This document shows positions 8,725 through 29,702 of a stretch of 29,702 bases of DNA, one piece after another. The notes beneath the pieces were generated by a model that saw only the letters and a program-made list of their open reading frames with translations, was not told the origin of the DNA and ran no database searches. A program made the position numbers and the translations under genes. The stretch is from a virus, in the IMG/VR virus record IMGVR_UViG_3300024262_000173, positions 1 through 29,702 of that record; one strand, given 5' to 3'. The number at the start of each line of letters is the position of its first letter. Position 1 is the first letter of the stretch.

Positions 8725-11427
8725 ATGACATCATTTGATCACGAAACATTTTTAAAAGTTAAAGGCGAAACTGGCACTGGAACCCTTGAGGCTATAGGTA
8801 TGTCTTATGGTCTGCCTAGCTGTATGTTAAATCTGGGTAAACAAGCCTTGAGCTTATTACCCTCAGGATTACTTAGCGATATACAGTCTAAGATCTTTGG
8901 CGGTAAATCAAAAGCTGAGGAAGTAACTAAAGGATTTTTTAAGAAGCTGGGTATGAATACAGGAGTCTATGAAGTTCTTACTGAGGGAGGACTTTGGGAG
9001 TGGTATTCTGACACCTCTTGGATGGGGATAGATAATGATGAGAGTCAAGAGGGTGATAATTTAGCAGGGCTCTTAGGTGCTATTGATTATGCAGTCGATG
9101 TAGGTGCGGGTCTATATCAAAACTATGAGGCTTTACAAGATATAATTGGTGGTGCCAAAGATTGTATAGAAAAGTGGAAGACTGTCCATGACTTCAGAGC
9201 GGGTGGTTCTGGCGATCAGAGAGCTACACTGCCACCAGAGGAACAGGCAGAACTGCTTGACTCCCTCTACGCTGGAGACAAGGCTGGGTTACAAAAGACT
9301 ACTGCGTTTACTTCCCGTTGCAATGATTCCTTGGACCTGATTAATACTATCCTTCGGGAAAGAGCAGCCGACCCTTCTCTAGAACCATGCTTTTTAGACT
9401 CTGCCGAGCTTGATCCATTCCTTAGTCAAACGAACTACAAAAGATGTGCCCCCGAAGATCCTGAAGTTGGACAAGAAGAGCAAGAAGTATTCAGACTTAC
9501 TTACGGACCTCCTGAGTCTTCTGACGGCCAATATGTATTAACTACAGACGGACTCTATTACGATTCTCAGACGGGCGGTTTGGATCCTGTGTTTCTAGCT
9601 ATTTCGGGAATAGTCCCTGTCGGGGATCAGTGGAAATATGATTACGATCCCAACCTGGGAGGTAAGGGCCAAGCGGTTTCTATCAAATCGCTAAACCAGT
9701 TTAGAGACAACATCTTTGATCCTGATAGGATTGATGATAGTATTGGACTTCAGGAATACTATAACGAGGACCACTTCCTTGCAGTGTTGAAACAGCAAAG
9801 AAACAAAATAACCTTTGATTTGTCTGCTGATTTACAAGGGTTTATTGACAGTGGGGAAGCTCTATCAGTAGTACAGAATCAAAGACAATTGATTATCTCT
9901 GAAGTTGCTAATCATAATAATAAGATAAATAGAAGAAAGAAACAAATTGAGGTTGCAGTAAAAGCACCTCAAATCTACGGAGATGCTATGGGACCACTAT
10001 TCCCCCCAGGAGAAGTACCCATTAACGATTTCTCCTACTTAGCTGATTATAACTTATCTGTAGACCTAGAAAGACAGAATGCTTTGATTTTCAAGCAAGC
10101 AGATGTTGTAGGTATAGTGCTACCCATTGATGTTAAGTTTGTAAAAACGAGTCAAAAACCTAGATCTATCGCTATTGATCATATAAATGTTCCCACAGTA
10201 GGAAGGGGAGCAATACTTTATTCTCCGTCATCCACAAACGCAGGAACTGTATTGTCCCTAACTGACCAAATTGTAAACAAAGACTTGTTTGCAATATATA
10301 ATTTCCTTGAGACTACCTTGGAATTACCATCTTCAATAAATTACCCTGTAACGAACTGCGCTACTGAAAATAGATATAATAATGCTCAGTTGGTAGGAGC
10401 ATCTAAAAGAACACTATTCGTATCAGGTCTGGGTATCCCATACTTTGGAGGTATTGTTAAAAACAAATCCACAGACCCTGCTGGAGCCTCAGGTTTAGGA
10501 TCATACGGGAAGCTACCCGACACCAAAGAGTTCCAGGACCTAACTTATTCGCCAAGTGGATTTACTATAGAATGCTGGGCTCATGTCCCTAACATTATGG
10601 ATGGGGGCGTTGGATGGCTTAGTTCTACAGCATCCTCACTAACTAAAGTTATTCTGGCTAATGAGAATGTTGGTTCTGCCTCAGGAGTATTAGCTGTGGA
10701 TCATACTGGGGCTGAACGAGATCTGGATTACTTGGAAAACAAAAGAGGGGAGAGCTTTGTCCGAGGAATGGTTTGTGGATTTACTAGAGATAGAAGAATC
10801 ACCCAAGCTTCCGCAGGATACAGTAATAATAATTATGATAACGATCCAGCATCCTCATTGAGTTTCTTCATAGCTCCAACTCAGGCTAGAGACTCCTCCT
10901 CTGCTTCTTGGATCAATAACGATGACTGTCAGGATTATGAAACCTTCTACAAAATGAAAGTGGATCTTTCGGCTACGGATTTTGGCAATGTGTCTTCGCA
11001 ATTTGTCCTTATTGATATAGCCTGTGACCCGAGGACGGATACTATTAAGCTGTTTGCTGATGGGTCATTAGTCGCCACCTCAGCTATATCAGCCGTATTC
11101 GGTGTAGATATAGGGATCCCACCGAGCTTACCATCCTTTAAGAAAGATAATAGCTTCCAGTACTCCTCAACTACGGTGGACGGACCTACAGTAATCAAAC
11201 AAGGACCGCTACTAAATACCCATTACACCCCCTGGATAGTTGGTGGTGGGTATACGGATGGTATGTATCAACATGGAAACTTCCTAGGGGGAGATCGTGG
11301 AGGAATAACCAGTGGTCTTCGTGGACACCTAGGAAGTTTGAAATTTTACGCTAGAGCCCTAGATAACTCTGAAGTTTCAAAGAACTATAAAGCCCAACAG
11401 GGCTTCTTCAAGAATATTAAGATTTAA
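8725..11427 (+). CDS. Large baseplate-associated protein with LamG-like lectin domain
   Basis: This is a 900-residue protein. The C-terminal 300 residues (about 590-895) look like a concanavalin-A/LamG jelly roll: SGFTIECWAHVP at 612-623, IKLFADGSLVATS near 774, and the closing GSLKFYARALDNSEVSKNY near 871-889. This last motif is the usual end of LamG-type domains, which bind glycans or proteins. The first 580 residues are not recognised. They include a helical stretch (residues about 370-420, with NQRQLIISEVANHNNKINRR) that may be a coiled coil, and an acidic, Gly/Pro-containing part around 240-300. The gene lies between spike and gp25, so the product probably belongs to the baseplate, with the lectin-like part facing the host. 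GAGG precedes the ATG. The stop overlaps the gp25 start as TAATG. Confidence 0.68.
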   Translation: MTSFDHETFLKVKGETGTGTLEAIGMSYGLPSCMLNLGKQALSLLPSGLLSDIQSKIFGGKSKAEEVTKGFFKKLGMNTGVYEVLTEGGLWEWYSDTSWMGIDNDESQEGDNLAGLLGAIDYAVDVGAGLYQNYEALQDIIGGAKDCIEKWKTVHDFRAGGSGDQRATLPPEEQAELLDSLYAGDKAGLQKTTAFTSRCNDSLDLINTILRERAADPSLEPCFLDSAELDPFLSQTNYKRCAPEDPEVGQEEQEVFRLTYGPPESSDGQYVLTTDGLYYDSQTGGLDPVFLAISGIVPVGDQWKYDYDPNLGGKGQAVSIKSLNQFRDNIFDPDRIDDSIGLQEYYNEDHFLAVLKQQRNKITFDLSADLQGFIDSGEALSVVQNQRQLIISEVANHNNKINRRKKQIEVAVKAPQIYGDAMGPLFPPGEVPINDFSYLADYNLSVDLERQNALIFKQADVVGIVLPIDVKFVKTSQKPRSIAIDHINVPTVGRGAILYSPSSTNAGTVLSLTDQIVNKDLFAIYNFLETTLELPSSINYPVTNCATENRYNNAQLVGASKRTLFVSGLGIPYFGGIVKNKSTDPAGASGLGSYGKLPDTKEFQDLTYSPSGFTIECWAHVPNIMDGGVGWLSSTASSLTKVILANENVGSASGVLAVDHTGAERDLDYLENKRGESFVRGMVCGFTRDRRITQASAGYSNNNYDNDPASSLSFFIAPTQARDSSSASWINNDDCQDYETFYKMKVDLSATDFGNVSSQFVLIDIACDPRTDTIKLFADGSLVATSAISAVFGVDIGIPPSLPSFKKDNSFQYSSTTVDGPTVIKQGPLLNTHYTPWIVGGGYTDGMYQHGNFLGGDRGGITSGLRGHLGSLKFYARALDNSEVSKNYKAQQGFFKNIKI

Positions 11428-11891
11428 TGGCTGCTAATCAAACAGTTTCGGTTTTTGGAAGAATATCTCCAAAGTATACTAAAGAGGGACCAACCTCTCA
11501 AAGGCATGAGGTTTATGGATTATCCTTCCCCTTAGGATCTACTCCAGCAGGAGGATACTTTTCTAGGAGATCAGGGATTCATACGATAAGAAATTCTGTT
11601 AAGCAGCTTTTATTAACAGAGCGAGGGGAAAGAGTTATGCTTCCTAACTTTGGATGCAATCTAAGAAAATATCTTTTCCAACCTCTAAGCCAATCCATCT
11701 TTGAATCAATTAAAAAAGAGATCCAATATTCCTTTGAGAATTATATTGTTGGAGCCAAAATTGTAAAAGTATCTGTATTCCCTTTTGGACCAACAGGACC
11801 AGCAGGAGGAAATTCCCTTAAAGTGATTTTGTCTTTAGGCTTGAATACCGATGATTTAGAAATATTTGATGTTGAGGTAAACATATCATGA
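11427..11891 (+). CDS. Baseplate wedge protein gp25-like
   Basis: This 154-residue protein is a clear member of the gp25/GPW family, the most conserved wedge component of contractile injection systems. The core is HTIRNSVKQLLLTERGERVM followed by LPNFGCNLRKYLFQPL; T64-E65-R66-G67-E68-R69 and the NFGCNLR turn are the hallmarks. In T4, gp25 binds gp6 and gp53 and starts sheath assembly. An extension of about 45 residues precedes the core (Pro/Gly-rich). No strong Shine-Dalgarno sequence is present. The ATG overlaps the upstream stop as TAATG, and the end overlaps the gp6-like start as ATGA, so the three genes are probably translated together. Confidence 0.94.
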   Translation: MAANQTVSVFGRISPKYTKEGPTSQRHEVYGLSFPLGSTPAGGYFSRRSGIHTIRNSVKQLLLTERGERVMLPNFGCNLRKYLFQPLSQSIFESIKKEIQYSFENYIVGAKIVKVSVFPFGPTGPAGGNSLKVILSLGLNTDDLEIFDVEVNIS

Positions 11892-13474
11892 ACTTTTCAG
11901 GAACCATAGCATCAGACTTTATGAAGTTAGCAAATATCCCTGTTAGTAAGAGACCTTCACTTATTAACTTTGCTGCTACTGATTTTATCACTCTTCGCAA
12001 TTCCTTGATTGACTATGCTAAGGCAGTCTATCCAAGAGACTATACTGGCTTTGTAGAATCTGATTTAGGAATGATGTTCTTAGAGCTTGTGGCTTATATG
12101 GGATCTGTTATGTCCATGAAAGCTGATATGCTTGCTAACGAGAACTTCTTAGCTACCGCAACACAACGAGCTAGTGTTAAAAAGCTTTTAGAATTAGTTG
12201 GGGTTCAAATGAAAGGACCCCTTTCTTCTGCCGCTGATGTCAAAATTACTTCTCCTGTAGAGGTAACTGGAAATATCACTATCGCAGCAGCCGATAGAAC
12301 TATAGAAACTACCTCCCCTGAAGATGGAGGAGTTCTAACTTATACACTATACAAAGTTGTTAATGGAGTTGTTGATACAATCAACACTGGAGGTAACATC
12401 ATACTTTATCCTGTTGAAGGCCAAGGAACACCAGTAACAATATTTGAAAATGTAGTTATACAAGAGGGAACGCTTGTAAAGGATTCAGGAAGTTTCGCAG
12501 CTACCGAAGCTGTTAAGACTATTAAGCTTACACAAGGATCTATTGTAGAGGGTAGCATTCAGGTATATACTACTGGCCCCGACCCTACCAAGAATGGAGC
12601 CTTTGTTGAAGTGCCTAATGTATTCTTCGCCTCAGGAGCATCAGATAAGATTTTTGAAGTGCTTTACGATGATAATTATACAGCTACAGTAGTCTTTGGA
12701 GACGGCAGTGTTGGCGTTTCCCCAGACGATACCTCTAACTACGAAGTTTTCTATAGAGTGGGTGGGGGAACCCGTGGGAATATTGGGAAGGACATCATTA
12801 ATAATACTATTCCTGGTACAATCAATACACTTGCCAATTCATTAGCTATAACAAATACCTCAAAAGCTACAGGAGGTGCAGACGCTGAAACTTTAGAACA
12901 TGCTAAACGCTACGCCCCACTAACCTTTAGAAGACAGGATCGCTTAGTAACCTTAGAAGATTACTCAGTATTTGCTAATACCTTTATTAGCACTTTTGGT
13001 ACGATTGGAAAGGCTACTGCTGCTACACGCCAAGCATACTCCTCCGCTAATGTAATTGACATTTATGTATTAGAGAAAGCTTCAGACATGCAACTACAAC
13101 GAGCTACTACAAACTTCAAAACTCAATTACTAACTGCTATAAGTAAAAAGAGGATGGCAACAGACGATGTGGTTATTGTGGATGGTCTTATTAGAACACT
13201 AGACCTAGTTACAACAATTCGAATTGATAGAGAAGATGAGAAGAACCAGGACCAGATCAAAGCGAAAGTTAGAGATAAAATCATGAGCTACATGAATGTG
13301 GATAATCGTGATTTTGGACAGGATTTCATTGTATCTGAACTGAACAGACAAATCTTTGAAGTGGATGAGGTTAGAATTTCTACAGTAGATAATATAGAAG
13401 GGAGCCTTACGATTGATTTCAATGAGATTATTCAGTTGAATAATTTAACAATTAATGTATCCTTAATAGACTAA
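11888..13474 (+). CDS. Baseplate wedge protein gp6-like (baseplate J family)
   Basis: This 528-residue protein belongs to the gp6/baseplate-J family. Typical elements are the N-terminal FAATDFITLRNSLIDYAKAV, then a segment like DLGMMFLELVAYMGSVMSMK and NENFLATATQRASVKKLLEL. A beta-rich middle follows, with FGDGSVGVSP and YRVGGGTRGNIG, and then RRQDRLVTLEDYSVFANTF, the usual entry to the C-terminal domain. In T4, gp6 forms the inner ring that ties wedges together and drives the change from the high-energy to the contracted baseplate. T4 gp6 has 660 residues, so this one is somewhat shorter. The ATG lies in an ATGA overlap with the gp25-like gene and has GAGGT upstream. The stop overlaps the next gene as TAATG. 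Confidence 0.94.
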   Translation: MNFSGTIASDFMKLANIPVSKRPSLINFAATDFITLRNSLIDYAKAVYPRDYTGFVESDLGMMFLELVAYMGSVMSMKADMLANENFLATATQRASVKKLLELVGVQMKGPLSSAADVKITSPVEVTGNITIAAADRTIETTSPEDGGVLTYTLYKVVNGVVDTINTGGNIILYPVEGQGTPVTIFENVVIQEGTLVKDSGSFAATEAVKTIKLTQGSIVEGSIQVYTTGPDPTKNGAFVEVPNVFFASGASDKIFEVLYDDNYTATVVFGDGSVGVSPDDTSNYEVFYRVGGGTRGNIGKDIINNTIPGTINTLANSLAITNTSKATGGADAETLEHAKRYAPLTFRRQDRLVTLEDYSVFANTFISTFGTIGKATAATRQAYSSANVIDIYVLEKASDMQLQRATTNFKTQLLTAISKKRMATDDVVIVDGLIRTLDLVTTIRIDREDEKNQDQIKAKVRDKIMSYMNVDNRDFGQDFIVSELNRQIFEVDEVRISTVDNIEGSLTIDFNEIIQLNNLTINVSLID

Positions 13475-16400
13475 TGGGAGATAGCAAATATACACCAAAT
13501 CCTAGAAAATACTACAAGACAAACTTTGTAGATCTAGTGGAGCTTATCACCCCCGAGGTGTATAAGATGGAGGATTTATATTTAAGTGGCACTGAAGTAA
13601 ACCCCCTCTCTCAAGTAATCAACGCTCATATAAATGTAGCTGCCAACATCTCTAATGTTATATCCCTGTCAGGAGTGGCTAACAGCCAAACAAGTGCTTT
13701 AGATAGTATTGATGGAATAGCCCAGTATTTTGTAAAGCAAAATAAATTAACTAATATTAATCCCTTCTTATTTGAAAGTAAGATCATGCTTCCCCTGGGT
13801 ACTAGTTTAGCAGATTATGATACAAGTGGGGAGTTTTTTACCTACCTGTCTGGGACACTACTCCCAATGATTATACCTGCGTCCACTACTCAGGTGGATC
13901 CGCTTCAAGCTAATATAACAACGCTATCGGCGTTAACAGGGGATTCGAATACTAGTAGCGTCCATAACTATTTAGTGGATACTTTGGGTTGGATGTATTT
14001 TTTGAATACTTCTGCTGATGGAGGGTTAGATTATTCCCCATCTAGCTATGTCCTCAATTCTTTAAATTCTCTATACATGGGGACTACCCTAGAGACTATT
14101 GATGGAATTAAAGGATTAACTGAGTACTTATGGAGAAACAATGAGACTTGTTCGTTCGGTTCATATATACCTGACGGTTTCGCTTCGGGTATAGCAGACG
14201 GAATTACAGAATCTAGTGCGGGGGTTCTACCGACATATACTAGCGGAACACAAAGGCTTGATGCTCTCAAAACCTTAATGGAGGTAGTTTACTCCCCCCT
14301 CTATATTGACGAGCAAGACTATACTGTTAAATCAGCATTCGATAATTATATTGATGCCTCTATGAAATTAGATAATAGAGTATCTAATGGACCTCATAGA
14401 AAATTTACTAATATTATGGGGTATGAGTTTGCTGACCTCAATGACCAAGTTGAAAATATTGGTTTAATTTATGATATTGATAATGTTAAGGGTGAACATC
14501 TTCAATACATAGCAGACCTTATTGGATTTAAACTTCGTGGTAGCTCTGCTTCGAAGTGGAGACACCAATTACGGTTAGCCCTTGATCTTTATAAGAAATC
14601 AGGAACTTTAGAATCTATTCAAGTAGCCATCAATACATTAATAGTTGATTCCGTATTCGATGTTTCTGGTAGAGTCCAAGAGTTATGGGAGTCCTACCTA
14701 CCTCAGTTGATTTGGTATGCCCTAGGGACGGAATCCCCCTTATTTAGAGATCTAAATACTTGGACCCCTGGGCTGGCTAATCAAGCGGGAGTATTTTCGT
14801 ACAGTACTAGTAGTCTAGAAGACAATATCAAGATGGTTACGGATAGTATTCTTCTAGATATGTACAAAGCGTTTCCTGATAATTTCTTATTCCATGGAAA
14901 TAAATTCCCTGTACCCCAGTTTGCGGAACTCGATATTAATGGATGCACTACAAAACGATATACCATTATTAATGAGCCAGGAATGAAGCCGTTCCATATG
15001 CACTCTATAGACAGTAATGGATATCAAGCATACAAACAGGATGCGAAACTGTTTGGAGAGAGTAAAGCTTTTGATGCTGCGACAGGGTTCGGTGCGTTAG
15101 GTTCTGGTGTATACATGGCGGGGGAAGAACACCTAACTACTGGAGAAAGACCGCTATACCTTAAGCCTGAAGGAGATCTTAATTTCTTGTTTAGTTATAG
15201 AGGTAAACAGAATTTTGGGATGCCTCCGTTTGAGGAAGTAAAATACTATAGAGACTCTTCTATTACTGCTGATATGGTTAATTTCTTAGTAGAGAGGTTG
15301 AAATGCTTTATGGTAAAGGATTCCTTTGCTGATGAGGTTGGTAATTATATTCTTAGTAGTGCGGTAACGGATGAATCAGATCTTGGTGCTTTAAATGAGA
15401 TGCTGATGTTCTTTAGTTCAGTTCAGATTCCATCGAACTTTAACGATGTGATGCTTAGTATTTCGGACTACGAAAAGAACCTGCTCCCTCTGTGGAATGG
15501 AAAATCCTCACACCTATTCATCAACTTTAAAGATACTGATTTCGATTTTTCTAAAACTACATTAGAAGGTGATGGAAAGTATGCTTTGTATGAAGCAGCT
15601 AGAGTAGCAAAAGAATTTTCTCCTGCTCATGCTATTACTAGAGTAAATCTAACTGCTAGTGCAGAAGATGATTTTTCTACATCAAGTGCTAATTGGGAAT
15701 ACTTAGGCTTTGATAAGGATGATAATAGAGCTTCCTATACTTCAGCCTCTGTTCTAGGAAACTTTGAGATTAGTGGAGCAGCTATGGGGTTAGTAGCTCC
15801 AGGCAACTCTGATGGAAGAGGGGGACTGAATACTTTCAAACGAGACGCTGTAGATAGAATTACGGATGCCCTTGAATCAACTACTACTGCTACCTTTGCT
15901 CCTAGACGAGCATTAAGAAGGCGTAACTTTAAGTATACTCTTCCCAAAGAGGGATACTACGATAGGACTGGGTTTAATGGTCCTGTGAATTGGGACGCTT
16001 CTGCTCAAGAAAACTCTATGCCTTCTTCTTTAGGAGAACTTACCTTAGGGTATGTGGCTTCAGCAGCAGCGTTCTATCCCGTAGTTGATCCTATTAATCC
16101 ATCAGGCGTTTGGCATGAGTGTGAGAAGCTTGATTCTTCCCGTCAATTCTCTGGAGTTTATACTAGCGCAACTTATCCCTATAGAGGATTAACTCCCCTC
16201 GGATCAAATAACAAGATGCCAGAAGAGGAATCAGCCACAGCTAGGTATGTGGATAGAGGTCAAGTTCCTGAATTATATAATACTATGCATCAGCTTTTTG
16301 AAGCTAAGGCATACGATTACGCTAATGAGCAGATTAATCTAAATACCTCTCCTTACGATGCAGACGCTTATTGGAAGAACAATAGACAAAGCTTTGCTAA

Positions 16401-22142: not shown

Positions 22143-22738
22143 AAAATTTTACAGAAGAGTTAGGGATTAACGGTCACTTGACCATCATTAAGAAATTTAC
22201 TGATGGTCAAGAGGAAGTTGTATTCGATGATCACAACATCATCGTTTCGGGCATGGGTGTAGGACTCACTTATATGTTTACTGGGTCAGGATCTAATTCT
22301 GTCCTTGATTATCAGATTGACAGGTTCCAAATAGGAGTCTCTGGCCCTCCTACAGGTGGAGAGACTAGTGCTATTTATCAATTATCTGGCGCAGCTACAC
22401 TAGCTGAATACGGAGGGGGAAGTAACCTCTTTATAGATGTCAAAGACCAGATGACTAATGGTACGCTAACCTCTAATGCTGCTGCCCTCATTCCTGCTAA
22501 TAAAATTACAAAGATTTCAGATGCTTCTGTTAGGTATACCCTAGTGGTGGACGAAGAAGCTTGTAATAGTATTAGCAGAAACAGTACTGATATGAATATT
22601 AACGAGGTGGGGCTTTTGATGAAGAACCCAACAGGCAACACCGCAGACCAACCTCTCTTAGTAGCCTATAGAACCTTTAGTAATATACGAAAGACTAATG
22701 ATTTTTCTTTAATTTTCAGATGGACACTTAACTTCTAA
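22139..22738 (+). CDS. Small virion protein, single-domain relative of upstream adhesin
   Basis: This 199-residue protein shows in uninterrupted form the domain that is split in the preceding gene. It begins with strands NGHLTIIKKFTDGQEEVVF and HNIIVSGMGVGLTYMF, and ends with INEVGLLMKN, LLVAYRTFSNIRKT and FSLIFRWTLNF. This start and finish are common in phage tail-fibre or baseplate attachment proteins. A longer reading from GTG at 22121 is possible. I prefer ATG at 22139, because it makes the usual ATGA overlap with the upstream stop and has GGAG at 22123-22126, although the spacing is long. It may occupy the same kind of site on the baseplate as the larger protein, or act as its partner. 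A gp8-like role is conceivable but not shown. Confidence 0.68.
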   Translation: MKNFTEELGINGHLTIIKKFTDGQEEVVFDDHNIIVSGMGVGLTYMFTGSGSNSVLDYQIDRFQIGVSGPPTGGETSAIYQLSGAATLAEYGGGSNLFIDVKDQMTNGTLTSNAAALIPANKITKISDASVRYTLVVDEEACNSISRNSTDMNINEVGLLMKNPTGNTADQPLLVAYRTFSNIRKTNDFSLIFRWTLNF

Positions 22739-25700
22739 TGCCTTTTAACCCAAACGATATTTATACCAGCAGCGGTAGCGTTATGCTGTACAACTCTTGG
22801 ACTCCTTATGTGTCCAAGTACGATACTAGCTCCTTCTACAACTGGGAGCAGGACAACCTGCCTCTGTATGATCTAGAGGAGCGTACCTATGAGCTTTGGG
22901 AGCAGCAAGGGTTTACTACCTCGGCTGGAGTTCCTGGATTAGCTTTAACCGTTTCTGCTGATGCTCCTACTGCTATCTTAGCCGCTAACAACAATGTCTT
23001 TACAGATTTAAGTTCCTGCATTGCTGCTATTCCTAAAGTGGTTCGCTTCCCCGTCTTAGTTGAAGTTGGAAACTTTGGAGATCTTGGACTTCTAGAACTA
23101 CATAATTTCCGAATGGAGGAGAGAGGTTCTATTGAGATCATTAATAGAAACTTCGGTAGAGTTTATAATGCATCTGGGGATTGTGAAGACACAGTAGGTT
23201 TACCAACATATAATGCGTCTCATGCGCTTATGACTACTGTAAGCTCTTTGGATTTAAGCAGTACTTATTTGGAGACTTGTTGCGTTCATCTTGGAGCTAC
23301 GGTTTTGTCGGGTGGTGTCGATATTAGAGTGGCTAACCAAGGAAATTCCTTCTTTTATCCAAGGCACAATTTGAGGAAGGCACCTCTAACAGTGTCAATT
23401 AAATCTGCTGCACCACTTACAGGAGTTGCCCAACAATTCTCCTTTACTCCATATGAGAACATAATTAATTCAAACGATCTAACTAGGGCAACTATGGATA
23501 TGAGTGCAGTTAATCAAGCTACAGCGGCAGATATAAATCGAGCAGGGTTATCAGATCCTGAAAGATTATCTGTAGGTGGCAATACTTACTTTAACCACTG
23601 CTCTAAGATTAGTGTTAAGAACTGTGATGGTCCTATTTATATTAGAAACTTCTTTGTTGATGGTGAATCTACTGCTACAGGTGGAAGAGATGTAGGTATT
23701 CAAGTAACTAATTCTGATGTTCTTATTGAGAACTGTGCGTCAATAAGGTGCAGAGAAGCAGGATTTAAGTTCAACAACTCAAGAGTTACTCTTTCGAGAT
23801 CCGCTGCTGCTTATAGAAACTATAAGTTACTCACTACAACTACAAGACAAGCTTCGACTGGATATGGATTCCACGCAATTAATAGTGAAGTCTTAGTAAG
23901 TTCCCTTCCGACTCCTCTTGGAACCACCTACCCTGGGGACACTGGAGGTTCTGGAGTTGATTGTGCTATTATTGCTTCCAGAAACTACGCAGGGTTTGTT
24001 CTTGATAATTCTAAACTAGTAGGGGGAGTTCAAAGAGCGATAGCTACACAATCCTTGGGTGGTAGTATTATCGGTTCGGAACTAAACACAGGCTACGGAT
24101 TCCTTCTAAATAATTCCCAAATGGATATTAAGGGTCTCCTTGATGTGTATGGAAATTCTAAAGGGATTGAAGCCGATGGATCTAAAGTAACTTTCCAAAA
24201 CTTAAGTATTGATCATCATAGTAATGAGGCTATTCGATGTAGAAACTCAGCGTTTATCTTCGATTCTCCTGCTGCCCCAGGTTCTGCGGGACAAGCTGAT
24301 CGTAAACAATTAGATATGTCTGCTAATGGTCAGCACATTGATCTGATGAAGAATAGCTCCTTCGGCTTTAGAAGAAAAAATAACATCCCTAATATTTATG
24401 GAAACTCACAATTCAAAGTTTCTCATGGTGTTATTAAGTGGGGTGGAGCAAATAATAGCACTCTCCCCGCAATATCGGTTAATGATAATTCTACTTTAGA
24501 TTTGCTTCATGCTTATGTTGATGTAAATGGAACTAGTGAAAACATAGCTAATGTTCCTTCTTTTGGAAGAGGAATTAAGGCTACTGCTAATTCTAAAGTA
24601 AGCTGTTATGGATCTAAGACTGGGTGTACTTTTGTTTGGGGTCCAACAGGAATTACTTATCAGGCAAAGATGGCAGGAATCTATGCTGATCAAGCTTCGG
24701 AAATTAACCTACATGGTCCTACGGCTATTGGTCAGTTTGGTGTGGATGTTTTGGTAGAGAATAACTCTACACTTAACATAGAACCAGCAAGAACTAGAGA
24801 TTCCTTTGGTTTAGAAGTGAGTGGATTTGATTTAAGTTCTCAAGGAAACCATACTTCCGTAGAACTCCATGCTACTAGATCTTGCTTGGTAGCCAACAAG
24901 AACTCCACAATCAACATGGCTGATCTTGGTGCCTTCCCTGCAAACTGGGCTAGGACTGGGACAGGTCGAACAGCACTTTCTGTAGGTTTTGATTACCCCA
25001 TTAACACTTTTAATACTAGTGCTTATACTGGTTCTGGATCTCTTCAATTCTATCCCAACCCTCAAGATCCGACTGCAATCGCCCAAAACAATCTTGATGA
25101 TTTAGTTACTGGTGGTTTTACTGTTCCTGACCCCCCTGTTTTTGCAGAAACAAACTACATTAATCGTTTCTTTGCTACTCAAAATATTATTAATACTCTC
25201 TTGATTGACGCAAATATTGCTAAGATTACTCAGGGAGGGATGTGCTTACGAGCTACACAAGATAGCGTAGTTAATGCTAAGAATGTTCATTTTCCTATAG
25301 GAACGAACACTAGTCCAATGGATGGTCTTTATTACACCACCAGTGGTGATTCTTGCAGTAAGCTTATGATTTGGAATATTGCTGATAGCTCTAGACTGAA
25401 TGCCTCTTTCCTTTCTGTTAGTGGTATGTGGCCTGGAAGTACTCAGTACCATGGACCTAGCTCAATTTATGCATCCTCTGTTGATGGAGTTAACGCTGGG
25501 AATGATTACGATGCTCCTGCGTTTGGAGCCCCAGTGAATACGCCCGATACAGGATCCCTAAGCGTGTTGGATGCATTCGGAGCAGGTAGTTCTGTATGGA
25601 CTGTTCCCTCTGGTGTTAGTGTTAATAGCCCCTTTGATGCTTTCTATCCCATCTCTGGAATAGTTAATGATGAAACTTCAATTTCCTTGGCAGGAGCAGG

Positions 25701-26313
25701 AATTAATGTAAGTGGTAGTACCACTTATAAATACGGATCAGGACCACACAGTAGCAATAACCAAGGAGTTTTCCGTATTTACTGGACTCCAAAATCAAGT
25801 GCAAGGGTTCTCCAAACTGATTTGAGTGGCTACCTAAAAGGAACTTTCCCCAATCCAGCCTTCGCTGGAGAAACCTTTAGTGGAGTTATCGGACCAGCAT
25901 ATCAAACTTTTGCTCAAGGATATAATTGCTCTGGCCCCCTATCTTCCTTACTACTACTTGATGCGTTAGGAAATAATGTTACTAGTGGAACTTATCCTGA
26001 TCTTCTTAAGCTTAGTTACGACTCTGATGGGGATGGGGTTCCTGACGAGCTTTGGACATCTGGATTTTATTACTGTAATGAAATGCTAGAGGAGAATCCA
26101 ACACAATGTATGCTTGATGAGTCGGCAGGAGGCACTTTTGCTAATGCTAAAAATGCAAGTATTGGGATGTCGGGTAGACCTAGAAAAGTAACTATTTACA
26201 GGTCTAGAAGTGACGCTCCAGCTAATAGAGGTTCTGAAGCTTATATTGGAGACACATCTGGAGCAGTAGGATTTAAATCCGCTGCAATCTTTGATCTATC
26301 GAGGGACAACTAA
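22738..26313 (+). CDS. Parallel beta-helix tailspike-like adhesin
   Basis: This 1191-residue protein begins with a short docking-like motif (NWEQDNLPLYDLEER, residues 35-49) shared with the next gene. From about residue 280 to 890 it reads as a right-handed parallel beta-helix: many turns carry N-S or N-N-S followed by alternating hydrophobic residues, such as VTNSDVLIENCAS, FNNSRVTLSRS, LNNSQMDIKG, ADGSKVTFQN, NDNSTLDLLHA and ENNSTLNIE. Such folds occur in phage tailspikes that bind or cut host polysaccharide. I cannot point to catalytic acids. Near the C-terminus, DSDGDGVPDE (1095-1104) is a calcium-binding type loop. The last 180 residues look like a separate beta domain. No Shine-Dalgarno sequence is present, and the start overlaps the upstream stop as TAATG. 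Confidence 0.75.
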   Translation: MPFNPNDIYTSSGSVMLYNSWTPYVSKYDTSSFYNWEQDNLPLYDLEERTYELWEQQGFTTSAGVPGLALTVSADAPTAILAANNNVFTDLSSCIAAIPKVVRFPVLVEVGNFGDLGLLELHNFRMEERGSIEIINRNFGRVYNASGDCEDTVGLPTYNASHALMTTVSSLDLSSTYLETCCVHLGATVLSGGVDIRVANQGNSFFYPRHNLRKAPLTVSIKSAAPLTGVAQQFSFTPYENIINSNDLTRATMDMSAVNQATAADINRAGLSDPERLSVGGNTYFNHCSKISVKNCDGPIYIRNFFVDGESTATGGRDVGIQVTNSDVLIENCASIRCREAGFKFNNSRVTLSRSAAAYRNYKLLTTTTRQASTGYGFHAINSEVLVSSLPTPLGTTYPGDTGGSGVDCAIIASRNYAGFVLDNSKLVGGVQRAIATQSLGGSIIGSELNTGYGFLLNNSQMDIKGLLDVYGNSKGIEADGSKVTFQNLSIDHHSNEAIRCRNSAFIFDSPAAPGSAGQADRKQLDMSANGQHIDLMKNSSFGFRRKNNIPNIYGNSQFKVSHGVIKWGGANNSTLPAISVNDNSTLDLLHAYVDVNGTSENIANVPSFGRGIKATANSKVSCYGSKTGCTFVWGPTGITYQAKMAGIYADQASEINLHGPTAIGQFGVDVLVENNSTLNIEPARTRDSFGLEVSGFDLSSQGNHTSVELHATRSCLVANKNSTINMADLGAFPANWARTGTGRTALSVGFDYPINTFNTSAYTGSGSLQFYPNPQDPTAIAQNNLDDLVTGGFTVPDPPVFAETNYINRFFATQNIINTLLIDANIAKITQGGMCLRATQDSVVNAKNVHFPIGTNTSPMDGLYYTTSGDSCSKLMIWNIADSSRLNASFLSVSGMWPGSTQYHGPSSIYASSVDGVNAGNDYDAPAFGAPVNTPDTGSLSVLDAFGAGSSVWTVPSGVSVNSPFDAFYPISGIVNDETSISLAGAGINVSGSTTYKYGSGPHSSNNQGVFRIYWTPKSSARVLQTDLSGYLKGTFPNPAFAGETFSGVIGPAYQTFAQGYNCSGPLSSLLLLDALGNNVTSGTYPDLLKLSYDSDGDGVPDELWTSGFYYCNEMLEENPTQCMLDESAGGTFANAKNASIGMSGRPRKVTIYRSRSDAPANRGSEAYIGDTSGAVGFKSAAIFDLSRDN

Positions 26314-28808
26314 TGGCTGAACAAATATTTAATGATAGTAATTACCGATTCTCGGATCCAATTAGGTTTTTTAAAGCTAACGATCCTTACTACTTTGAGG
26401 TGGATAATATTCCGCTCAAGCAATTGCAAGAAAATTGCTTGTGGTTAAAAGATCAAGTTAGAAAAGACACTACACAAAAGCTTTTAGGAGTGAAGAGGGC
26501 TGATTTAGATGAGCTTCGTCCGTATGCTACGGGGGGAGACAGAGTGCTTCGTGTTAAGCCTGGGCGTTATACTGCTAGGATCAATGATGCTTCTACTAAA
26601 ACTCCACTTGCATACTTAAGTAAGGTTATGGGCATTGCGGTTGGTGATGTCGATGCGTGGGCTACTCCGCTTCCCAACCCTGGGGACTTTCCCGATGGAA
26701 AGAATGCTATTCTTCAAGCGGCACTAGATACCTTTAAGAACTCAATTGCTCAGGAAGCTATGGGTATGACGGGTCTTGCAGAAAGAGCCTTTACTTGGCC
26801 TGTTATTAACTCTGACACTCCGATTGATAATGACGGAGTAGACTTAACTGGAATGGCTTACGGAGATGAGGATGTTAACATTCCTGGTGGAGGCGCAGCT
26901 TACTCCCCAATGGTGATTACACAAGCTTTACTTTGGGCCAAGTCTCAAGGATCTACCGTAGCTTCTTACGCTCTGCCTAGTTTTGAAACTACCAATCCTA
27001 ACAACGGGTGGGCTAAGTTTCCTAGAACAGAAAGTTATTTCATTAAAAGGTGGAGAGGTGTTTCTCGTTTAGCCATTGTGGATATAGATGACGAAATTTC
27101 TATTGAAGTTCCTCAGTTTGACCCTACTGATTTTGACTACACTAATTCCCAGGGAGTTACGACTCCCGTTACAGGGGTGGAAAGCAGGATTGATTTAGTA
27201 TTTATTTACAGTAAGCCTGTTGATGCTAGTGGAGTTAATATTCTAAAGCCATCTGGTAAGGTGGGCATCACTAAACCAACTCTCGGCATTGTTCGTGGAG
27301 CAGGAATTAAAACAAACTTCCAAGAAAGCTCACAAACTAATAAAGATTATATTACCAACTTAAATGATGATCACGGTATTCTTGCACACCCTGGAGATCA
27401 GAAGAACATAAACATGGGGTTCACTTCTACCTCTGCTAATGATCTCGTACAAGATGTTAGAGGTTCCTTTCCTGCCCCTGATGATATCTTAAACATAGCT
27501 CCACTTATCTCTGAGAAACTAGAGGATAACGCATACGAGCTTGTTGGTCAGTCCATCCTCCCCGTAGCTTATGTGTGGGTTCAGAATGGTTCTCAAGTGG
27601 TTCTTAGTACGGATGTCATTGATATTAGGCCCTTGTTTAGGACTGCCGAATTGGCATACAACGAGAGGGCTGGTATTGGTGCTGCTATGCCCCAACTCTC
27701 ATTAGCTAACCCTGCGGTTGGTAAAGGTCAGTTAGACTATGAACTTAAACGAGTTTTTGATACTGTAACTGGTCATATTGAGTCTGTAGCAGCAACATCA
27801 GACACGCAAAGTGCAACGAACACTTTAGCCACAGGTTATGTATTTGGCGGTTGGAACTTTGGTCCTGAAGGAGCCCTTTACGATTACTATCAAGGAGTTT
27901 TCGCAGATGATGGGAACACAGACACTAATGCTGATGCTTATATTAAGCAGTATGTTAAGGGGAAATATGGAATAGGTAGTGCCGCTGCACAAATTATTAT
28001 CCCTTCTTACCCTGATTGGGACTTGTCTCAATGGTGTACGGAACAAGATCTTTCTGATAAGGGACTCTACCCTAATGATTATATTAATACCTTCTTCAGT
28101 CTAGCTGGAGATCTTGACCCCTCCATAGTTGCAGGAAGTAAAAAGAATGTAGTTTATCCTGATGGAACTACGACAGGTGGGGGCGTACCTGATAGATTAC
28201 AAAACTTCGGAAATACGGAAAGCTATCCCAGCACACAGTCTAGGGCAGGATTTCAGTATATTTCTAAAAAAATTAAGTTCACAAGACCAGCATGGTTAGC
28301 CGATTATAAAGTTGATATTGATTTAGTTAATAGTTTAGCGCAAACTACCATGGGGATTGGTGGCACTCACACAAGTAAAGGTCAGCAAGCAGGGTACTTT
28401 GGTCACTGGGTAGAAAAAGGTTTTGATGAGTTTACAGTTTATGTTGCCTTTGTTACTGACGATCTTAATTCTAGATCAGGTACTTCAAGTGCAAGATTCC
28501 CAGCCCCGCATACAGTAGTGGTCACTACTGGAGGTGGTAAGAAAAACTCAACTACTAATAGTGTTACTGTATCCGAAAGGGGTGGAGAACGATTTAGTGG
28601 TTTTGTGGTTCCCGTTGGAGATATTTTATATTCAAATACCTCACCGATATCTACAGGAAATGGTCTTGGCTATACTGGAAACCCAAGAATTGGAAAGTGT
28701 ACTTATCCCACTGTAATGTGGTCAATTTCAGGAATTCCTATTGCAGATGCACCGTATCTTTATGGGAATCTTAATGGAACTAATCCAACAATCACTTTAA
28801 AGCCCTAA
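26313..28808 (+). CDS. Virion structural protein with shared docking motif
   Basis: This 831-residue protein is of unknown detailed role. The N-terminus has DPYYFEVDNIPLKQLQEN (residues 24-41), aligned with the start of the preceding beta-helix protein. A part near 225-330 has YFIKRWRGVSRLAIVDIDDE and a beta strand with RIDLVFIYSKP. Further on, VIDIRPLFRTAELAYNERAG and PQLSLANPAVGKGQL form a well-ordered segment of a kind I associate with large-phage virion proteins. The end is beta-rich with Gly and Ser/Thr (GERFSGFVVPVGDILYSNTS). There is no signal peptide, membrane segment or enzyme motif. It is probably an outer baseplate or fibre-base component. The start has GAGGGA seven bases upstream and overlaps the upstream stop as TAATG. 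Confidence 0.65.
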   Translation: MAEQIFNDSNYRFSDPIRFFKANDPYYFEVDNIPLKQLQENCLWLKDQVRKDTTQKLLGVKRADLDELRPYATGGDRVLRVKPGRYTARINDASTKTPLAYLSKVMGIAVGDVDAWATPLPNPGDFPDGKNAILQAALDTFKNSIAQEAMGMTGLAERAFTWPVINSDTPIDNDGVDLTGMAYGDEDVNIPGGGAAYSPMVITQALLWAKSQGSTVASYALPSFETTNPNNGWAKFPRTESYFIKRWRGVSRLAIVDIDDEISIEVPQFDPTDFDYTNSQGVTTPVTGVESRIDLVFIYSKPVDASGVNILKPSGKVGITKPTLGIVRGAGIKTNFQESSQTNKDYITNLNDDHGILAHPGDQKNINMGFTSTSANDLVQDVRGSFPAPDDILNIAPLISEKLEDNAYELVGQSILPVAYVWVQNGSQVVLSTDVIDIRPLFRTAELAYNERAGIGAAMPQLSLANPAVGKGQLDYELKRVFDTVTGHIESVAATSDTQSATNTLATGYVFGGWNFGPEGALYDYYQGVFADDGNTDTNADAYIKQYVKGKYGIGSAAAQIIIPSYPDWDLSQWCTEQDLSDKGLYPNDYINTFFSLAGDLDPSIVAGSKKNVVYPDGTTTGGGVPDRLQNFGNTESYPSTQSRAGFQYISKKIKFTRPAWLADYKVDIDLVNSLAQTTMGIGGTHTSKGQQAGYFGHWVEKGFDEFTVYVAFVTDDLNSRSGTSSARFPAPHTVVVTTGGGKKNSTTNSVTVSERGGERFSGFVVPVGDILYSNTSPISTGNGLGYTGNPRIGKCTYPTVMWSISGIPIADAPYLYGNLNGTNPTITLKP

Positions 28809-28812
28809 TATA

Positions 28813-29702
28813 ATGCCTATTGAAGATCCTACATTCGGTTGCGGGACCTTCCTTCCTGGGATGGGTCCTGGTAACTTCTCCGATTTTGATGGTGGTGGAA
28901 CCATTGATGGTGGAGGAGGGGATGACCCTGATGATCCTGATGATAATGGACCTGATGGAGAGTTGGACGATGTTATTATAGATGATGATACTGGTATAGT
29001 CCACCCCCCTCCAGGAGTCATTCAACCAAGATTTGAGACTACATATTGGCGTTGTATTGAAGTTAATCAAATCAAAAAAGAGTGTCAACCCATAACTCAA
29101 GATTCCGCGCAAGCACCCCCAGCGAATTCCTTTCTATCACAAGCAGATTGTGAGCTTATTTGTAATAGTCCCCCAACACCAGGGACTGGAGGAGGAGGAG
29201 CCCCGAGGCCGCAACCTCCAGGACCACGAAGACCGTCAACCCCAGATGTTGCTCCCCCTGGTCCTGGAGGAGGAGCAACTTGTAAATGTACTGTTACTAG
29301 CCATTTCATTGGCCCATCAATTGCTGTGAATGGTATTTGTACTAGGCAAGTGACTCTTTTCCAAACCTGCGTTCCTTTAGGAGTCCCAGAGTCAAACCAT
29401 CGAGAGGAAATCGCTGCTTATGTGAATAATGGATGGAATGTTCAGGGTACTACTGCCCAAGGCCCTGCTGGATGTGTTTGTGGATCAAACGATTGTACCA
29501 ATAAAACCTTTACCCTTATAAAAGCTTGCCCAGATGATTTAGATTCTACCCCTAGGGGTGGTGGTGGAGGTGCTGCTCCTGGAGCCCCTAAAGATGACCA
29601 TCCAGGAGGCCCTACTACCCCTGGTGAGGACCCCCCAGGCCCTGGTGTTGGTGGAGGACCTGGAGGAACCCCTGGAGGAACGGCTAAAGGCCCTACTACC
29701 CC
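28813..29702 (+). CDS. Gly/Pro/Asp-rich cysteine-containing protein (runs off right edge)
   Basis: An open frame of 296 codons runs from ATG 28813 to the window end without a stop. It starts MPIEDPTFGCGTFLPGMGPG. An acidic linker follows (GGGDDPDDPDDNGPDGE, residues about 35-52). Then comes a small cysteine domain (YWRCIEVNQIKKEC, then FLSQADCELIC), a Gly/Pro linker, a second cysteine-rich domain (CKCTVTSHFIG, CTRQVTLFQTC, CVCGSNDCTNK) and a further Gly/Pro/Thr-rich linker up to the edge. The spacing F-x-S-x-x-x-C-x-x-x-C recalls short disulphide-bonded domains of the Kunitz-like type. This is only a resemblance. The gene begins four bases after the upstream stop and has no visible Shine-Dalgarno sequence. 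Given its place it may be a fibre or surface-decoration protein. Local G+C is higher than in neighbours because of Gly/Pro codons. Confidence 0.7.
   Translation, partial: MPIEDPTFGCGTFLPGMGPGNFSDFDGGGTIDGGGGDDPDDPDDNGPDGELDDVIIDDDTGIVHPPPGVIQPRFETTYWRCIEVNQIKKECQPITQDSAQAPPANSFLSQADCELICNSPPTPGTGGGGAPRPQPPGPRRPSTPDVAPPGPGGGATCKCTVTSHFIGPSIAVNGICTRQVTLFQTCVPLGVPESNHREEIAAYVNNGWNVQGTTAQGPAGCVCGSNDCTNKTFTLIKACPDDLDSTPRGGGGGAAPGAPKDDHPGGPTTPGEDPPGPGVGGGPGGTPGGTAKGPTT

Follow-up and report, generated by a model that had tools for sequence, protein, structure and literature searches.

What do small cysteine-rich domains strung on flexible linkers do in a phage protein? This question is raised by the last gene of a virus fragment, the complete IMG/VR record IMGVR_UViG_3300024262_000173, whose open reading frame (ORF) starts at position 28813 and is still open where the record ends. 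We refer to the whole stretch of 29,702 bases as the window, to the cysteine-rich domains as beads and to their gene as the bead gene. With a probability of roughly 55%, the gene encodes a protein that is associated with the baseplate or tail in a clade of T4-like phages, is anchored through its C-terminal domain and carries swappable, disulfide-stabilised domains that probably serve in adhesion.

The ATG of the bead ORF lies 4 bases past the stop of an upstream gene for an 831-residue protein, and no stop is met before the contig end. Cysteine accounts for 13 of its 296 residues (4.39%), compared with 58 of 9,118 (0.64%) in the 13 other ORFs of the window. These Cys fall into one lone residue, four in a first mini-domain (bead A) and eight in a second (bead B), in the following arrangement.

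28813..29702 (ORF 28813..29700+), plus strand: bead gene, 5' part only; ATG start, 296 codons, open at the contig end.
28813..28920, plus strand: conserved N-terminal peptide, residues 1-36, PTFGCGTFLPGMGPGN..., with the lone Cys10 (alignment of 37 N-regions).
28921..29031, plus strand: acidic linker, residues 37-73 (composition).
29032..29178, plus strand: bead A, residues 74-122, Cys 81, 91, 113 and 117 (bead A alignment A4).
29179..29274, plus strand: Gly/Pro linker, residues 123-154, 66% glycine plus proline (composition).
29275..29532, plus strand: bead B, residues 155-240, Cys 157, 159, 176, 186, 221, 223, 228 and 239, taken as three core pairs and one extra pair (alignment A3, model m8f12b5c6f41b, Cys pairing).
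29533..29700, plus strand: Gly/Pro/Thr linker, residues 241-296, 55% glycine plus proline, within which the contig breaks (composition).
26313..28808, plus strand: upstream gene of 831 residues, constant neighbour and handle to the relatives (33 relatives in viral_contigs and two distant ones in genome_contigs).

A preliminary description of the sequence had seen linkers, acidic first and then Gly/Pro-rich, alternating with two different Cys mini-domains, and a Gly/Pro/Thr linker starting before the window edge. Composition and Cys positions confirm this layout (aspartate plus glutamate make up 38% of the acidic stretch 37-70), and the residue ranges then proposed for the domains, 70-120 and 155-245, are correct. 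The ORFs on the reverse strand opposite the bead gene are probably mirror frames of the Gly/Pro codons and not genes.

Used as a query, the bead ORF gave no match in viral_contigs, the cultured phages, PHROGs, Pfam or PDB, in agreement with the earlier remark that no known family was recognised. Since the bead ORF alone finds no relatives, the upstream gene was used as a way in. It retrieved 33 viral contigs (best segment 51-86% identical), and in 26 of the 26 that reach past it the next gene is the bead gene. The bead genes of these 26 relatives open with the peptide [TS]F[GDEN]C[GN]... (23 by pattern; L008, L021 and L022 were missed by the pattern and added separately). A profile of the C-terminal domain (C-domain) matches 23 of the 27 proteins, the four misses (the window, L005, L012 and L020) being due to contigs that end before the domain. 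A scan with the C-domain alignment (A1, 20 sequences, mean column identity 56%) gave 41 loci, many of them contigs already found. Altogether, 37 distinct N-terminal regions (N-regions) were analysed, 36 from ORFs with a C-domain match plus that of the window; the N-terminal motif aligns across all 37, but it also served to find them. Scanning genome_contigs with the C-domain alignment gave no match, and scanning it with an alignment of the upstream protein gave two distant ones (L082 and L083). There was no tblastn match in the phage collection to the C-domain protein, the upstream gene, the bead-rich part of L021 or the L082 proteins, no C-domain in the 35 kb examined of the 595-kb uncultured phage record LR756511 (the best gp6 match), and no overlapping contig in viral_contigs when bead B and the contig end were searched for as exact DNA.

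The family has a common layout. The N-terminal peptide with its one Cys is followed usually by zero to three beads, then by variable linkers and by the conserved C-domain of about 630 residues, which the window ends before reaching. A frame stop just past the edge, which would have spoken against the preliminary description, is not borne out: by homology, the relatives' frame runs on into the C-domain. The N-regions are 210-1,476 residues long and hold 1-83 Cys. Bead B goes beyond chance, since one profile, built from members of this set, detects it in 32 of the 37 N-regions; bead A was detected in three (the window, L007 and L021). Among 11 records searched, beads of type B occurred only in the bead gene (9 of 11 positive). 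The expectation that the beads would continue downstream holds for the family and not necessarily for the window, as in the nearest relative, L002, a linker of about 180 residues leads from bead B into the C-domain with no further bead. L021 (12514-18924) encodes 2,137 residues, with 83 Cys in the N-region, 11 A beads by regular expression and at least two B-type beads. A third Cys motif, GC..P.A.N[YF]......C, was seen in L003 (313-340) and in L066 and L079 (residues 90-150), where it replaces or follows B beads.

The behaviour of the Cys strongly supports closure of the B beads by internal disulfides, because their counts are even, they are gained and lost in pairs, and an extra pair appears to shift in antiparallel register. 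The analysis used the 40 B beads of alignment A3, that is, 48 profile hits less four from near-identical loci and four further rows (the first beads of L008 and L021 and the second beads of L030 and L055). C3 and C4 are present in all 40, and the Cys count, which ranges from 2 to 10, is even in 39, as expected of the disulfide-type mini-domains first proposed. One CxC Cys and C5 are absent together in three beads, and in L030 and L055 both CxC Cys, C5 and C6 are gone, leaving two Cys (C3 and C4). Extra Cys occur before C3 or after C6 in 13 beads, exactly one on each side in 12 of them, the exception being L050. In all 12 beads carrying both, a Cys n residues before C3 has its partner n or n±1 residues after C6, with distances of (5,4), (7,6), (10,11), (11,10), (12,12) and (13,14). 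The two distances rise together (r 0.98; exact p 0.007 for the six distinct combinations; permutation p 0.0004 for the 12 beads, uncorrected for kinship), as a cross-strand bond between antiparallel strands would give. For whole N-regions the Cys total is odd in 34 of 37, which would correspond to one lone Cys plus pairs, and the control C-domains showed no parity (13 even and 21 odd of 34).

AlphaFold2 predicted a beta-beta-alpha-beta-beta fold for bead B of the window (model m8f12b5c6f41b; predicted local distance difference test score, pLDDT, 85.4) from the same alignment as that used for the Cys analysis, and the extra Cys 176 and 239 lie in or at the second and last strands of this model. 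Bead B had no significant match in Pfam, PHROGs or PDB, and nothing significant came from the fold search with Foldseek (best E 0.077); VIA-align reached at best Z 4.9 with a root-mean-square deviation of 4.7 over 69 aligned residues. We read these scores on the predicted model as a common arrangement. Ferredoxin-like alpha/beta folds (ribosomal S24e/S6, PilO) have a similar order of strands and helix, but none matched significantly in Foldseek and the Z is within the range of common arrangements. Two of the 40 B beads weakly matched a PKD-type Pfam model (best E 0.0046), whereas the predicted fold has a helix and four strands.

Bead A follows the pattern [YW]xC-x(n)-C-x(n)-[YF]x[TS]xxxC-xxx-C (alignment A4), with one relative in L007 and 11 in L021 (regular expression). 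Its four Cys are invariant in 10 of the 10 aligned beads. Its profile listed 22 PDB chains at E<=5, none significant, the best being a phycobiliprotein (E 0.2); three of the 22 are presumably of Kunitz type (anntoxin, E 0.34; TFPI, 0.52 and 3.4; not significant). Kunitz/BPTI domains have six Cys in three conserved disulfides, and we take their C-terminal [FY]xTxxxCxxxC element to be like bead A, which however has four Cys. An alignment combining both bead types (A2) placed the B beads onto bead A and was dropped.

We compared how fast the parts of the protein change. In a quick-method tree built from 32 rows of the upstream protein, the window, with beads A and B, pairs with L002, with B only (support 99), and then with L007, with A only (support 95). 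Over 150 pairs of phages with a single B bead (one of 151 was left out for low cover), mean identity is 28% for the bead, 47% for the C-domain and 61% for the upstream protein, and the bead is below the C-domain in 85 of the 89 pairs having both. Both chain ends are conserved among the relatives; the middle is not. At the DNA level, L016 and L032 are 97-98% identical in the bead and 62-84% elsewhere, except for 91% over the first 150 bases of the gene, which we read as a recent exchange. L076 and L016 are 41-60% identical over the bead and linker region as against 62-84% outside it, which we read as a cassette replacement. Between L016 and L017, identity is about 99% along most of the compared DNA, and their linkers differ by 32 residues.

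The surroundings of the gene are those of a tail operon, as had been thought from the window. Upstream lie wedge-type baseplate genes of gp25 type (11427-11888; PHROGs 'baseplate wedge subunit', E 1.9e-15) and gp6 type (11888-13471; same annotation, E 4.6e-39), and downstream of the bead gene in L002 lie genes for a head maturation protease and a gp23-type major head protein. The gp23-type capsid protein (PF07068) is present in 13 of 16 relative records, the window record ending before the gene; Portal_T4 was found in four of nine records, and in both records showing the two genes, over 40 kb separate it from the capsid gene. Because the nearest cultured gp6 and gp23 matches are only 24-27% and about 30% identical, respectively, the phage belongs, judged by these proteins, to a T4-like clade that has no close cultured member among the phages searched. 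In L082 a PAAR-motif gene directly follows the C-domain gene (PF05488, E 1.9e-5, below its cut-off; phrog_281, E 2.8e-9). PAAR proteins are located on tail tips, and this adjacency favours a baseplate-side role; in other records the PAAR-like matches lie beyond the capsid gene, so the L082 neighbourhood is not general.

The architecture, the pairwise behaviour of the Cys, the bead turnover and the operon context, all established at the level of sequence, are the ground for the following picture. The product of the bead gene would be a structural protein of roughly 900-1,000 residues in an uncultured T4-like myophage clade. The C-domain would fix it in the particle, most likely in the baseplate or tail, and a long flexible Gly/Pro tether N-terminal to it would display the small disulfide-held domains; the free end could be linked or anchored through the conserved lone Cys near the N terminus. 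The disulfides would probably form once release brings the particle into oxidising surroundings. Being optional, fast-evolving and exchanged, as expected of such modules, the beads may act in adhesion to or recognition of a partner that varies (the host surface, a glycan derived from the host, or a particle), by analogy with the immunoglobulin (Ig)-like adhesion domains of phages. Since related phages swap, add or lose beads in front of a conserved domain, the protein may well be an exposed module for attachment or decoration, of a kind absent from the family libraries searched. The early proposal of a flexible tether or surface decoration is thus supported as to the tether and stays the best guess for the protein's presumed place in the virion.

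Other explanations are taken roughly by likelihood: passive spacer, metal binding, inter-subunit lock and non-virion role. It is possible, if on balance unlikely, that the N-region is a passive spacer or a particle-stabilising decoration, its beads and linkers setting reach or protecting the tail and binding nothing. L048 has the linker without a bead; L083, from a metagenome-assembled genome labelled Altibacter (a flavobacterium), has the C-domain (profile E 7e-24) and a Gly-rich linker without a bead; and L082, from a Prochlorococcus single-cell assembly, has the C-domain (E 4e-24) with neither linker nor bead, so that beads cannot be essential. Linker length varies freely, as between L016 and L017, and high divergence and exchange are equally expected of unconstrained spacers. 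These points weigh against adhesive display, and so do several others: the odd Cys count of the L050 bead, the three N-regions that break the odd-total rule (L050, L066 and L079), the distance of the clade from the cultured phages searched, and the anchoring role of the C-domain, which we infer from conservation and gene order and for which the fold searches were read as no match (PDB best E 0.075; VIA, one row, Z 2.9; BFVD best E 0.033). To these may be added a search for an Erv1/Alr thiol oxidase, in which nothing matched, controls included, and which is hence uninformative. A pure spacer, however, would not need a fold and paired Cys kept at 20-30% bead identity, nor the apparent exchange of beads as units.

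The Cys pattern likewise makes it improbable that the beads are zinc or other metal knuckles, folding in the reducing cytoplasm without disulfides. Phage tails do assemble in the cytoplasm, and the CxC and CxxxC spacings of bead B could hold a metal; but beads persist with 2, 4, 6, 8 or 10 Cys, the two Cys left in L030 and in L055 are too few for a usual zinc site, and the register shift of the extra pair resembles that of cross-strand disulfides. Of the two options first put forward, metal binding and disulfides after release, the former therefore fits the pattern worse; for the latter, closure following release is what we infer.

Just as doubtful is a role of the Cys in assembly or triggering, with inter-subunit disulfides locking the baseplate until contact, as described for the tail of phage Milano. 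In this Agrobacterium phage, according to the published report (PMC10811340), disulfides cross-link sheath and baseplate subunits of the released contractile tail, a precedent that qualifies the earlier statement that disulfides are unusual in phage tails, which otherwise stands. The likeness is that of disulfides, here deduced from sequence, in a contractile-tail virion. The lone N-terminal Cys would suit such a lock, as it is conserved and the odd totals leave it without a partner in the N-region; the even counts in single beads, on the other hand, point to bonds within small displayed domains and not to subunit cross-links, and relatives without beads exist. Least probable of all is that the bead ORF encodes a non-virion protein lying by chance at the junction of the tail and head clusters, an idea helped by a C-domain without known relatives but opposed by the constant gene order (in 26 of 26 contigs it follows the same tail-cluster gene), by the head genes downstream in L002 and by the adjoining PAAR gene in L082.

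Compared with Pfam, PHROG and PDB profiles or sequences, the C-domain had no significant match (best PDB E 0.7), and its missing fold match does not show a new fold. Bead A, bead B and the C-domain are three families outside the libraries searched, bead A having been checked in Pfam within whole proteins and, as a profile, against PDB only. Literature searches limited to open-access papers listed no work on such a protein. The display of accessory domains on phage particles is already known; what would be new here is the type of domain displayed. According to published work (PMC11853027, PMC13370021), phage virions carry Ig-like accessory domains through which they adhere to mucus or epithelium, and varying these domains alters binding. 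Like those of T4 Hoc, the beads are optional, modular and variable domains, their display on the particle being deduced here from genes alone. They differ in being of disulfide type, with a predicted beta-beta-alpha-beta-beta fold, and in belonging to a baseplate- or tail-side gene; no B bead reached a Pfam Ig family.

We tentatively suggest a second, non-immunoglobulin modular adhesion system, in which disulfide mini-domains tethered to the baseplate or tail are exchanged as cassettes, up to a dozen or more per chain (L021), and the lone Cys fastens the free end to the particle by a covalent bond, the beads thereby forming a loop. If true, oxidation-dependent mini-domains, best known from secreted eukaryotic proteins, would do in these phages what Ig-like domains do elsewhere. 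A graded series, from no tether (L082) through a beadless tether (L083 and L048) to an N-region with 83 Cys (L021), makes it possible to trace how a display protein of this sort is built up. A further, testable question is when, and by what means, a protein made in the reducing cytoplasm acquires its many disulfides. The three families and the T4-like clade described above would be further gains.

Several observations concern the neighbouring genes and the records. The contigs of the window, L005, L012 and L020 all end inside the bead and linker region, which may reflect assembly trouble in repetitive, variable linkers. L082 (QCKN01000003.1, 130,604 bases) is a distant relative of the clade with gp23, a head-protease-like gene and PAAR genes. 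Its presence in a Prochlorococcus assembly is a possible host lead; the L082 and L083 contigs may be viral sequence caught in assemblies and are hence weak host hints. The next gene downstream of the bead gene (L002:15588-15983 and its counterparts in other relatives) codes for a small acidic protein, which in most of the relatives read contains a CPLC motif; the L083 copy (15150-15545) weakly matches the Rad50 zinc hook model (E 0.018), and a role as a zinc-hook protein of the prohead core or scaffold is possible. Two genes upstream of the bead gene, a 1,191-residue protein (window 22738-26313) contains 18 Cys. Its N-terminal motif DNLPLxxLEER resembles DNIPLKQLQEN of the 831-residue protein, and the two may be of fibre type, with this motif as their attachment to the baseplate. 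Lastly, the second half of the 831-residue gene (window ~27900-28660) is 65-69% identical in DNA between the window and L002, against 81-88% before it, with similar values in other pairs, as if this part of the protein were exposed too.
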